Shown here: positions 3,082 to 37,358 of the stretch, piece by piece
How positions within the stretch are numbered: the first letter of the stretch is position 1
Layout: each line of letters begins with the position of its first letter
DNA from: a virus
DNA: 64,000 nt
Virus record (IMG/VR): IMGVR_UViG_3300037247_000353
Location: 1-64,000 of that record
Direction: 5' to 3' (one strand)
The notes under the pieces: model-generated
Told to the model about the DNA's origin: nothing
Databases searched by the model: none
The model's input: the letters and a program-made list of their open reading frames with translations, nothing else
Position numbers and translations under genes: made by a program

Positions 3082-4614
3082 ATAGTAGGATACACACGTC
3101 AATCGGCAGGCTCTATAACAGATGGAGCAACAATTCAAGCCTCTCATTTTAACAATGAGTACAACCAACTTGAGTCTGCTTTTAATGCAACAACGGGCCA
3201 TGACCATACTGGTGGGGCTGGACTAGGGCCAACCATAGCACTATCAGGAGGCTCTATTGGAGTTACTGGTACGTTAGCTGTTGCTAATGGTGGTATTGGT
3301 GTTACCACATTAACAGATGGGGGTATTCTATTAGGCTCTGGAACTAATGCTGTTACTGCTATGGGGGTTTTAGCAGATGGATCAATTGTTGTTGGTGATG
3401 GTGCTACAGACCCTGTAGCAATAACAGCATTCACTTCTTCTACTGGACTTTTAATTCATGAACGTGGGGGTATTGAAGCTAATATTTCTGCTATTACAAC
3501 AGATCAATTCCTTGGGGGTACATCGGCAGGCGTTATAGGAATAAGAACTGCTGCACAAGTTACCACAAGCCTTGCACTAACTATTGGTACAAACACACAA
3601 GCGTTTGGTGCTAATTTAGATCAGATTGCAGCACTAGTACCAACAGCAGATAATTTTATAGTGGGTAATGGATCAGCATGGACTCTTGAAACTCCTGCTA
3701 ATGTACGAACTAGTCTAGGCTTAGTTATTGGAACTGATGTTCAAGCTGAAGATCCTGTATTGACTGATCTTGCAGCATTGTCAGCAGTTGCAGATAATGA
3801 ATTTATTGTTGGAACTGGTGCTGGTGTGTACGCCCATGAAAGTGGTACTACTGTTAGAACAAGCCTTGGATTAGGAACAGGGGATACACCTGAATTCATC
3901 AAACTTGGTGTTGGCGGAACTCTGACAGACGGCACTTTTCACGTCATCACGGCAAGCGCGGGCCCAGTGGCGGCAGATGCTGCTGGGGACGATTTAGTCA
4001 TCGAGAATAATACAGATGGCGGGATTACTATTCTTACGCCGAATAATGCAACGGCAGCTATATATTTTGGTGATCCACAAAGTGCCACTAGTGGCGGTGT
4101 ACAATACCAGCATTCAACGAACACTTTACAGCTTCGTGCTAAGGGGGCAGTTCAGGTAACAATTGATAGCAACGGCGTTACGATGCCGAACCAACCTGCC
4201 TTCCTGGCATTCAACAGTGCAACGGATGGGAATGTAACAGGCAACGGTGCCTCAACAACGATTGATTTTGATACGGAAGTCTACGATCAAAACGCGGATT
4301 TCGCGGCTGATACATTTACCATGCCAGCGCCAGGAGGTAAATGCTTACTTACAACCAGCGTTCAGATCAGCGGACTAGTCAGCGCGACGAATATAGCCTT
4401 ATCAATCGTTACATCCAATAGGAGCTATCGAACAGATTTTTCAAGTCCGCCAGACACGCTCTTTACAGTCCAAATGAGTTGTGTGGCCGACATGGATGCG
4501 TCGGATACGGCGACTGTGGTGGCCATTGTCTCCGGCATGGCGGGGGATACAGCCGATGTTCTCGGCAATGCGACCACCTTGTTAACCCATTTCTCAGGTT
4601 GTTTACTTGCATAG
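3082..4614 (+). CDS. Tail fibre protein with probable ATA start
   Basis: The first ATG in frame is at 3361, but the frame is open from 3079. The upstream codons encode a typical fibre N-terminus (GYTRQSAGSITDGATIQASH, then FNNEYNQLESAFN and TGHDHTGG). No ATG, GTG or TTG precedes this; the codon placed after a good ribosome site (AGGAGA at 3070-3075) is ATA at 3082, giving 510 residues. Repeats of the type LADGSIVVGDG and VPTADNFIVGNGSAW fill residues 70-270. From about residue 275 the gene becomes GC-rich and ends in a globular beta domain (about 4190-4614), probably the receptor-binding tip. Confidence 0.7.
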   Translation: MVGYTRQSAGSITDGATIQASHFNNEYNQLESAFNATTGHDHTGGAGLGPTIALSGGSIGVTGTLAVANGGIGVTTLTDGGILLGSGTNAVTAMGVLADGSIVVGDGATDPVAITAFTSSTGLLIHERGGIEANISAITTDQFLGGTSAGVIGIRTAAQVTTSLALTIGTNTQAFGANLDQIAALVPTADNFIVGNGSAWTLETPANVRTSLGLVIGTDVQAEDPVLTDLAALSAVADNEFIVGTGAGVYAHESGTTVRTSLGLGTGDTPEFIKLGVGGTLTDGTFHVITASAGPVAADAAGDDLVIENNTDGGITILTPNNATAAIYFGDPQSATSGGVQYQHSTNTLQLRAKGAVQVTIDSNGVTMPNQPAFLAFNSATDGNVTGNGASTTIDFDTEVYDQNADFAADTFTMPAPGGKCLLTTSVQISGLVSATNIALSIVTSNRSYRTDFSSPPDTLFTVQMSCVADMDASDTATVVAIVSGMAGDTADVLGNATTLLTHFSGCLLA

Positions 4615-35268: not shown

Positions 35269-36273
35269 CTATCTCCGTGTCAATGTTTCGTGTGCAGGTT
35301 GCATATCTGAATCGAAGTATCCGCGATAATAATATGAACTACCTAGCAGCTTAGCTGATTTTGGTAAAAGCTTTTTTGGACCAAAATAAAACATATTTTC
35401 TTTTTTATTAAAATGACAATAATATCCTCGGCTTAAACAGTCGTGGTAAGGCAAAGGACATATTGGTTTTTCCAATATTTGTATTGCTGGAACCTTAAAA
35501 ACACTATTTATATTGGGGCGATTATCGTAGCAACTAGCGGTAAAACCCTTATTTTTCAAAATCGCCAAAAATAAAGATCTATAAAAGCCGGATTCTGCAT
35601 AAATAATTCCATAATATTTTTTAAATTTATGTGTTGGATTTTTTCTAATTAAGATTGCCCTAGCAACCCCTCTATTTGCAACTTTCAAATACACACCCTG
35701 CGTATATGGACAGTGAGAATACCACATAGACGGCCATAAATTATGTTCTTTATACAAATAGTTCCGTAACCAAGTATTATATGATGTACTTTTAGGAGAC
35801 ATACAACTAAGTGCATGAACCTCATACAAAGCAATATGATCTTCAGGAGTCTCACAAATTACCATCTTTGCAGAATTTTTTAATATCTTATGCATTATTT
35901 TTTGGGAGTAGTCTCGTATTTCATTATCCTTAAGTCCACTTTTATTTAACCTTAAATATTTAATCAGAAAAGAAGTTAGTTTTACAGTCTCATTAACTTT
36001 TAAATAGTTAGTTTCTGGAACTGTTTTTAGTTTTCTTTTTAGCCCAATTAAAGTAGGTTTAAATGTGTCTTCATCTATTTTAATCTTACGTTTAACTAGT
36101 TTTGTATTAAATTGAATATGCTTATACACACGCACACGACCCTCCCCGTTCAGAGAGGCTAATGGCAATTTTATGGGAATGGAATCTGGGAATTCTTTGC
36201 GAATAATACGAAATATAACATATGCTTCAGGGCACGTACTGTCCAATAACGTTTCAATAGATTTGGAAAACAT
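35269..36273 (-). CDS. Unknown protein, paralogue of 33665
   Basis: 334 residues; AGGAGC precedes ATG 36273. Shares the core described for the adjacent gene (SCMSPK ~155, GVYLKVANRGVARAIL ~195) but lacks the zinc finger. It is the first protein gene after the tRNA-like RNA, 26 nt beyond its 3' CCA, so both are on one transcript. No function assigned. Confidence 0.6.
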   Translation of the reverse strand: MFSKSIETLLDSTCPEAYVIFRIIRKEFPDSIPIKLPLASLNGEGRVRVYKHIQFNTKLVKRKIKIDEDTFKPTLIGLKRKLKTVPETNYLKVNETVKLTSFLIKYLRLNKSGLKDNEIRDYSQKIMHKILKNSAKMVICETPEDHIALYEVHALSCMSPKSTSYNTWLRNYLYKEHNLWPSMWYSHCPYTQGVYLKVANRGVARAILIRKNPTHKFKKYYGIIYAESGFYRSLFLAILKNKGFTASCYDNRPNINSVFKVPAIQILEKPICPLPYHDCLSRGYYCHFNKKENMFYFGPKKLLPKSAKLLGSSYYYRGYFDSDMQPAHETLTRR

Positions 36274-36298: not shown

Positions 36299-36393
36299 TG
36301 GCGTCCCAGGCTGGATTTGAACCAACGTTTCACTCTCTAGTTATCCACTAGTGACTCAAGAGAGAGCGTCCTAGACCGCTAGACGACAGGGAC
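36299..36393 (-). tRNA. tRNA-Glu-like RNA with abnormal anticodon arm
   Basis: 95 nt on the minus strand. Acceptor GTCCCTG pairs with CTGGGAC (one T-T mismatch), then discriminator G and encoded CCA. D arm GTCT/GGAC with loop AGCGGTCTA and linker TC are nearly those of bacterial tRNA-Glu; T arm is GTTGG-TTCAAAT-CCAGC. The anticodon stem CTCTC/GAGAG encloses 24 nt instead of 7, and no T33 plus anticodon is found in register. Part of that insert (CTAGT-GGATA-ACTAG) can form its own hairpin. Either a non-decoding tRNA-like glutamate acceptor, a tRNA with an insertion needing removal, or a decaying gene. Confidence 0.7.
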
Positions 36394-36397
36394 ATAC

Positions 36398-36415
36398 GGG
36401 GGAATCTCTTCCCCC
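36398..36415. promoter_or_regulatory. Hairpin just 5' of the tRNA-like RNA
   Basis: GGGGGAA-TCTC-TTCCCCC gives a perfect 7-bp stem, 4 nt before the tRNA-like 5' end on the minus strand. No U-run follows, so processing signal or barrier is likelier than termination. Confidence 0.5.
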
Positions 36416-36419
36416 GATT

Positions 36420-36441
36420 AACCACTAAGAATTTAGCGGTT
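36420..36441 (-). repeat. Palindromic element, CTAA/TTAG family (copy 1)
   Basis: On the minus strand AACCGCTAA-N4-TTAGTGGTT, 9 bp with one G-U pair. The wobble is only possible in minus-strand RNA, suggesting an RNA hairpin. Sits 5 nt past the stop of the 36446 gene. Related hairpins are at 40.4, 41.5, 45.1, 47.2 and 63.4 kb. Confidence 0.5.
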
Positions 36442-36445
36442 TATG

Positions 36446-36883
36446 TCACGCTTGCCCTGAGAGCTTGTAGGAGCCAACAACAGTAGCCTTGCCTCGCCCT
36501 GGTCCTACCGCGAAATCACGCGACCGGAGATTGAGGGAAACACAGTCACCATCACGATTTGTGCCAAGGTGGGCATAGACATTATTACCCTCGGCAATCG
36601 TGAACAGCATATCATCTGCAACCTTTGAACGGGCCATCTTCTTATGCTGACTTGGGGGAAGGAAGTTCGCCTTAATGTCGTAGGAGCCCACGACAATTAC
36701 CTTCTTACCAGCCCCTGAGACTGATGTGAAGGCCAGATTACCATTCGCCATATTGATGCTGGCGAACTTTCCGTTTTGACCAATAGCACCGTAACGTTTT
36801 TGGCCAATACGACCGCTGGCCATGCTGATACCAAAAATTGCACCAACAGGGACACTACGACGAGTAGTTTTCTTATTCGGCAT
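36446..36883 (-). CDS. Hypothetical GC-rich basic protein (145 aa)
   Basis: Starts MPNKKTTRRSVPVGAIFG; Gly/Ser/Ala-rich with repeated beta units (VVGSYDIKANF and VVGSYKLSGQA; FASINMANGNLAFTSV). Much richer in G+C than the surrounding operon, as are 38691 and 45783, perhaps because these are highly expressed early genes. Preceded by a long structured leader. No family recognised. Confidence 0.65.
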   Translation of the reverse strand: MPNKKTTRRSVPVGAIFGISMASGRIGQKRYGAIGQNGKFASINMANGNLAFTSVSGAGKKVIVVGSYDIKANFLPPSQHKKMARSKVADDMLFTIAEGNNVYAHLGTNRDGDCVSLNLRSRDFAVGPGRGKATVVGSYKLSGQA

Positions 36884-36929
36884 TTACAATCCTATCTGGA
36901 TTTGGGTTTCAACATTATAGGACAGTAAC

Positions 36930-37116
36930 CTTACACCAGGGCGTCATGGCGACCCGATGCGACTTCGCTGCCCTTCACCAAAGTCAAGGTGTTCGATGAC
37001 GAGACCTGTTTTGTCACCTACAGGGAGGCGGACCCATGTATCTCGCCTTTAGGGGTGGTAGCCTTATTCCTAGGATGGCATCTGCCGAGCCAAAACTACC
37101 ACGCAGAACGCTTCTT
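36930..37116 (-). ncRNA. Multi-hairpin structured RNA region
   Basis: About 185 nt, GC-rich against AT-rich flanks, without a convincing gene. Four successive stems: GTGGTAG/CTACCAC (37055-37102, 7 bp), CGAGA/TCTCG enclosing CCTGT/ACAGG (37000-37045), CACC/GGTG (36977-36991) and AGGGC/GCCCT (36938-36974) with inner GCG/CGC. A promoter-like pair lies just upstream. Could be a stand-alone RNA or the 5' leader of the 36446 gene. Two short frames of 36 and 28 codons exist (sharing GTGA) but have no clear ribosome site for the first. Confidence 0.4.
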
Positions 37117-37122
37117 TCATCC

Positions 37123-37151
37123 ATTATCTAAATAATACCATAATGAATCAA
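37123..37151 (-). promoter_or_regulatory. Sigma-70-type promoter candidate
   Basis: Minus strand TTGATT (37146-37151), 17 nt, GATAAT (37123-37128). Transcription would begin about 37116, right before the first stem of the structured RNA region. Confidence 0.45.
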
Positions 37152-37358
37152 TTAAGTCAAATCAGATATAATAGTATTTATAATAGTTTGAATGTTTGTT
37201 ACTTCTTTACACCTAAACCCAGCACCTATGCTTATTGTAGAACCAATAATCATAGATATATGTTGTTCATGTATTATTTTAGAAACTATATCATTATCAT
37301 CCACTATATACATATTCCCTTTATGGCACCTGCAACCACATATAATTAATTTACTCAT
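37152..37358 (-). CDS. Small hypothetical protein (68 aa)
   Basis: MSKLIICGCRCHKGNMYIV then IIGSTISIGAGFRCKEV, a Rossmann-like/SLOG-like rhythm. Start overlaps the deaminase stop as ATGA. Function not assigned. Confidence 0.6.
   Translation of the reverse strand: MSKLIICGCRCHKGNMYIVDDNDIVSKIIHEQHISMIIGSTISIGAGFRCKEVTNIQTIINTIISDLT

Follow-up and report, generated by a model that had tools for sequence, protein, structure and literature searches.

The window analysed here, a stretch of 64,000 nt, is contained in the virus record IMGVR_UViG_3300037247_000353, which comprises 68,416 bases (68 kb). On the minus strand of the window, from position 36393 to 36299, lies a tRNA-like RNA with an encoded CCA, whose sequence and coordinates were checked. 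The Rfam tRNA model (RF00005) matched positions 36302–36393 of this strand with 36.8 bits, compared with a gathering threshold of 29, and the alignment left a 25-nt unaligned stretch that was confined to the anticodon arm. The match had an E value of 1.1e-7 in the whole 68-kb record and was its sole tRNA match; a fast whole-window Rfam run missed it.

As shown in Table 1, all three arms of the body (acceptor, D and T) are canonical and resemble those of tRNA-Glu, U6xU67 being the single mismatch (6/7 acceptor pairs), and the bases of the tertiary core (U8, A14, G18G19, U54U55C56, A58 and C48) are retained. The RNA thus has the 7-bp acceptor (six of the seven positions paired), D arm, T arm and tertiary core of a decoding tRNA; what it lacks is the 5-bp anticodon stem with a 7-nt loop and U33. 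These results bear out an earlier note on this DNA, which had described a tRNA-Glu body with an altered anticodon arm; the strand that encodes it is the minus strand.

Table 1. Features of the tRNA-like RNA and its flanks, with window positions
Feature	Position	Strand	Basis
145-aa ORF, upstream, same strand as the tRNA-like RNA	36446..36883	-	
Tandem pair of hairpins, 3 nt short of the 5' end of the tRNA-like RNA, without a T-run	36394..36446	-	fold z -5.43
Acceptor stem, 5' strand GTCCCTG	36387..36393	-	Rfam tRNA alignment
D arm GTCT-AGCGGTCTA-GGAC, Glu-type, G18G19 present	36368..36384	-	Rfam tRNA alignment
Anticodon-type stem, 5' strand CTCTC	36362..36366	-	folds
24-nt loop TCTTGAGTCACTAGTGGATAACTA replacing the 7-nt anticodon loop; contains a weak TAGT/ACTA inner hairpin	36338..36361	-	
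Stem, 3' strand GAGAG	36333..36337	-	
Variable region TGAAAC, last base C48	36327..36332	-	
T arm GTTGG-TTCAAAT-CCAGC	36310..36326	-	Rfam tRNA alignment
Acceptor stem, 3' strand CTGGGAC, U6xU67 mismatch	36303..36309	-	6/7 pairs
Discriminator G73 and encoded CCA	36299..36302	-	
334-aa ORF, start 25 nt past the CCA, AGGAG ribosome-binding site	35269..36273	-	

The 334-aa ORF probably shares a transcript with the tRNA-like RNA, and the tandem hairpins may possibly act as a processing or insulating element. For both the 334-aa and the 145-aa ORF, we found no family match and no homologue in IMG/VR or INPHARED. The best promoter-like site was located at 37160–37132 of the minus strand; such sites were no more numerous than expected by chance. 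Between this site and the 145-aa ORF, a GC-rich stretch of ~250 nt (36884–37131, minus strand) contains no ORF of 70 aa, and its fold was not above chance.

This arrangement raises the question of whether the tRNA-like structure works as a leader element of the 334-aa gene, as a signal for processing or stability, instead of as a free RNA. The element ends 25 nt ahead of the start codon and follows two strong hairpins, as such a signal might. However, the other phage tRNA-like RNAs described below have no neighbouring gene in common, and a mature 3' end is suggested by the encoded CCA and the complete body; we accordingly consider a leader element very unlikely.

The extended anticodon arm

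Past position 26 and ahead of the variable region, CTCTC and GAGAG close a loop of 24 nt (7 + 17), and therefore no anticodon loop is present. The loop is exactly 17 nt longer than the normal one of 7 nt, in agreement with the ~17 extra nucleotides counted initially. In a free fold, the CTCTC/GAGAG stem could be extended to eight pairs. Because one G is common to this stem and to CTAGT/ACTAG, the two helices cannot both form fully. The fold z value of the inner hairpin was -0.02, and an equal hairpin was obtained in ~6% of shuffled loops. Therefore, of the inserted hairpin proposed in the earlier note, the extended arm closed by CTCTC/GAGAG stands, but the inner CTAGT/ACTAG helix is weak and near chance level. 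What lies beyond chance is a nearly whole tRNA body without an anticodon loop, not the inner hairpin. When antisense targets of the 24-nt loop were sought within the window, the longest match was 10 nt, which is the chance expectation.

A class II tRNA, in which a long variable arm had been misread by folding, could have a similar size, since the total length of ~92 nt is within the class II range. However, a 5-bp stem with a 7-nt loop cannot be placed anywhere past position 26, so that the canonical anticodon arm and separate variable arm of class II are absent, and ARAGORN reported no tRNA at this locus. The failure of the RNA as a classical long-variable-arm tRNA, which had been noticed at the outset, is thus confirmed, and we regard the probability of a class II tRNA as close to negligible.

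Viral RNAs of the same layout

We searched viral sequences with a Glu-type pattern (a Glu D arm, 36–60 nt and a T loop) and found nine other loci (L042–L050). For example, CCGGC and GCCGG in L042 enclose an ACCATG...CATGGT hairpin. As a separate observation, positions 3600–4772 of L049, a 195-kb phage contig, contain aberrant Glu-like tRNAs lined up in a row; one of these was scored as tRNA-Sec.

As a control, we used a pattern with a D arm that is common to many other tRNAs (elongator-type), for which few cases were expected. This pattern was found in at least 120 viral stretches, and the specificity of the class for Glu was rejected because the control gave even more cases than the Glu-type pattern. 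We determined 110 distinct viral elongator-type tRNA bodies with 10–34 extra nt in the anticodon arm, a number that is a lower bound. In 94 of these 110, 6–7 of the 7 acceptor pairs were formed, compared with 4.1% when acceptor halves were swapped between sequences; 91 of the 94 lacked a canonical anticodon arm and were kept, and these 91 had 86 distinct acceptors. T stems were perfect in 104 of the 110 distinct bodies. Among the first 67 cases, the best closing stem had five pairs in 27 (40%), compared with 9% in shuffles, and T33 was present in 9 of the 27 resolvable elongator-type cases. Because of this acceptor pairing, the diversity of acceptors, the excess of closing stems and the rarity of T33, the set as a whole consists neither of decoding tRNAs, nor of introns at 37/38, nor of random debris. 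The window RNA has the anatomy of this class: its acceptor and T stems are paired, the extra stretch is 10 nt or longer, and a canonical anticodon arm is missing.

An intron-containing tRNA-Glu, in which removal of 17 nt would yield a functional anticodon in the archaeal and eukaryotic manner, had been put forward as an analogy in the earlier note; indeed, the extra stretch resembles in position and size the Nanoarchaeota introns found by the same pattern. We therefore tested every join of the loop ends that gives a loop of 7 nt, in all stem registers, and counted as positive those RNAs in which N-U33-(C/U)UC resulted. No cut point in any register restored this sequence in the 10 Glu-type phage RNAs (the window copy and the nine others), whereas 7 of the 15 archaeal controls were positive; for the window copy, the nearest rejoined loop, UCUU/CUA, has C33 and U37. 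Because a Glu anticodon is not regained by any excision, and archaeal intron controls pass the same test, the intron idea fails, and the low frequency of T33 in elongator-type cases also speaks against the analogy. The phage is, moreover, related to bacterial phages, and bacteria are not known to have a protein tRNA-splicing system. We conclude that an intron is extremely unlikely.

For 12 of 30 carrier virus records, many of which are fragments, the extended RNA was the sole match to the tRNA model, as it is in the window; this is therefore evidence against codon supply as its purpose. The tRNA finders either missed the extended RNAs or gave an undetermined or spurious isotype, and no Rfam family other than tRNA was found for them. 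No neighbouring gene was common to the carriers, except within groups of two or three related phages, and no target was indicated by the neighbourhood. Shine-Dalgarno-like motifs were not enriched in the arms (42/91, compared with 35 +/- 4.5).

One family of the class could be analysed by covariation. Its alignment, A1, contains ten members from different contigs (L101, L127, L137, L149, L164, L168, L172, L174, L191 and L196), and RNAalifold independently recovered the acceptor, D, replaced-arm and T helices. The alignment has 24 pairs, with 97.5% of cells paired, and both sides changed in 12 of the 24, including all five pairs of the stem that closes the replaced arm. None of 500 shuffles was as good, and slid controls were far below. 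The core of the arm follows UCA-N-GGY-GAAGG-RCC-N-AA with few exceptions. This family is demonstrably under structural (compensatory) selection, the replaced arm included, and is a candidate for a new Rfam family. In a three-member family with identical acceptors (L105, L115 and L177), the arm (G/A)UUAAAGGAUA / (G/A)TTAAAGGATA is kept while the flanking stem changes and, as read by eye, appears to covary. No copies of two of the families were found in the isolated phages of INPHARED.

For comparison with bacteria, we examined a sample of 398 genomes from the phylum to which the Shewanella genome mentioned below belongs, and none of them contained an elongator-type extended RNA. Ordinary tRNAs that match the same D and T arms numbered 131 in 31 genomes, or ~4 for each genome; because the viral collection contains more bases, the viral and bacterial sets were compared per tRNA gene and not per base. 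Separately, we observed in 2 of 97 Shewanella genomes (L062, positions 1009–1076, and G449:C1:2216160-2216226) a tRNA-Glu copy in which a TTTCTCTGGGTAGAGAGTC hairpin replaces the anticodon loop; the L062 copy lies inside a tRNA-Ala/Glu array and adjoins a gltX-like ORF. We also observed three deltaproteobacterial contigs (L053, L064 and L082) that contain a Glu body with 55–60 nt between the D and T arms. The last bases of this stretch are CTCGC, CTCGA or CTCAC, which would fit a hairpin located between positions 33 and 34 of tRNA-Glu(CUC); two of the three are rejoinable to a Glu anticodon.

Phage lineage and possible roles

The portal and the DNA polymerase of the phage are 54% and 48.5% identical, respectively, to those of Pelagibacter phage HTVC033P. 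By these two proteins it is classified as an HMO-2011-type podovirus, grouped with phages of alphaproteobacteria. Relatives were found by both DNA polymerase and portal, and an equivalent RNA was absent from them; no tRNA over the cut-off was found in the 16 records checked (10 complete relatives and 6 polymerase relatives). Two of 26 portal relatives carry a tRNA-Cys upstream of the replication genes, which we considered as a counterpart and rejected, as it is an ordinary tRNA without sequence relation to the tRNA-like RNA. No homologue of the copy at 36299–36393 was found in the collections searched, which may omit near records. Because the 16 relatives were without a tRNA above the cut-off and 2 of the 26 portal relatives have only an ordinary tRNA-Cys, the tRNA-like RNA looks like a gain specific to the lineage of this phage, as judged from the available sequences.

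Such a gain could be recent and decaying. In that case, a host tRNA-Glu would have been acquired recently and its anticodon loop broken by a 17-nt insertion or template switch, and the product would have no function. Consistent with decay are the single copy, the U6xU67 mismatch in the acceptor and the chance-level inner hairpin, and because no homologue was found and the 16 relatives checked are without the RNA, we assign a damaged acquired tRNA a minor but appreciable probability. However, nearly everything outside the anticodon loop is intact, including the CCA and the closing stem; the change is located exactly where dozens of other phage tRNA-like RNAs are altered, and one family of these is under structural selection. 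Homologues with an ordinary 7-nt loop, named beforehand as the sign of a damaged gene, were not encountered, no homologue of the window copy having been found.

The best-supported interpretation is that the window RNA is a functional non-decoding tRNA mimic of an HMO-2011-type podovirus, to which we assign a probability of roughly 0.6. A non-decoding mimic had been preferred in the earlier note as the simpler reading, and it is favoured here by the intact body, the missing anticodon, the many unrelated phage RNAs of the same layout and the structural selection on one family. The results suggest that this mimic belongs to a widespread class of viral RNAs. For the broader proposal that many tailed-phage lineages carry unrecognised tRNA mimics, in which a lineage-specific structured arm replaces the anticodon arm and which are used against or through host enzymes that read tRNAs, with the window holding one of them, we consider the chances evenly balanced.

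If the RNA is such a mimic, it would be part of the transcripts of the minus-strand genes, undergo tRNA-like trimming at the CCA and in the vicinity of the two upstream hairpins, and fold into an L shape. Host factors that read the elbow and the acceptor end would then recognise it, with decoding being impossible. Among the possible uses, that of a decoy is the most likely: the RNA might occupy a host tRNA-directed enzyme, such as a tRNA-cutting or tRNA-modifying factor, perhaps one of phage defence, and the extended arm might prevent reading of the anticodon or hold a partner. The decoy step, taken alone, is speculative and rather doubtful; it is favoured because the RNA cannot read codons. 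A close second, nearly as likely, would be a regulatory RNA in which a stable tRNA body serves as scaffold and displays the arm.

The usual explanations for phage tRNAs are codon supply and the replacement of tRNAs that host defences have cut. Whole-body non-decoding RNAs, which are often the sole tRNA-like gene of a phage record, fit neither explanation. If functional, they would provide a direct handle on the host tRNA-binding factors that phages must block or borrow.

Comparison with known tRNA-like RNAs

The phage RNA shares with tRNA(Glu), as modelled in RF00005, the acceptor, D and T arms, the tertiary core and the CCA, and differs from it in the 24-nt loop and in having neither an anticodon nor U33. 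In the archaeal intron-containing tRNA-Glu genes found here (for example L051, L055 and L061), the anticodon arm of a Glu-type body likewise contains extra nucleotides; however, excision restores CUUUC/CUCUC loops in these genes and not in the phage RNA.

The cases in a study of non-canonical prokaryotic tRNA genes were attributed to integration fragments, CRISPR spacers and ambiguities in the sequence (PMC9897764). We found no open-access paper that describes phage tRNA bodies whose anticodon arm has been replaced. Non-decoding tRNA-like RNAs are already known, and the phage class with a replaced anticodon arm is apparently undescribed.

Further non-decoding tRNA-like RNAs include tmRNA, YrlA and those of herpesviruses. 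Murine gammaherpesvirus 68 encodes tRNA-like transcripts that are not for decoding and that carry extra hairpins after the tRNA body. In this animal herpesvirus the hairpins thus follow the body, whereas in the phage RNA the anticodon arm is replaced. The herpesvirus transcripts are cited in PMC6409571. The bacterial Y RNA YrlA (RF02553) resembles the phage RNA in its non-decoding tRNA mimicry, but its ends and Ro-binding stem are arranged differently. Sub-threshold matches to RF02553 were obtained in two carriers of the class (28–29 bits, compared with 69), and Rfam gave no YrlA match at the phage tRNA-like RNA.

The pseudo-tRNA tRNA-Other of Bacillus cereus has no role in translation and is regarded as a structural part of a regulatory RNA; RACE and deletion showed that it is expressed and acts outside translation (PMC3399842). 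Compared by description and not by sequence, tRNA-Other resembles the putative phage mimic as a tRNA-like RNA with no part in translation, and differs from it in being chromosomal, located at a genomic island, equipped with a Trp anticodon and part of a larger RNA (PMC3399842).
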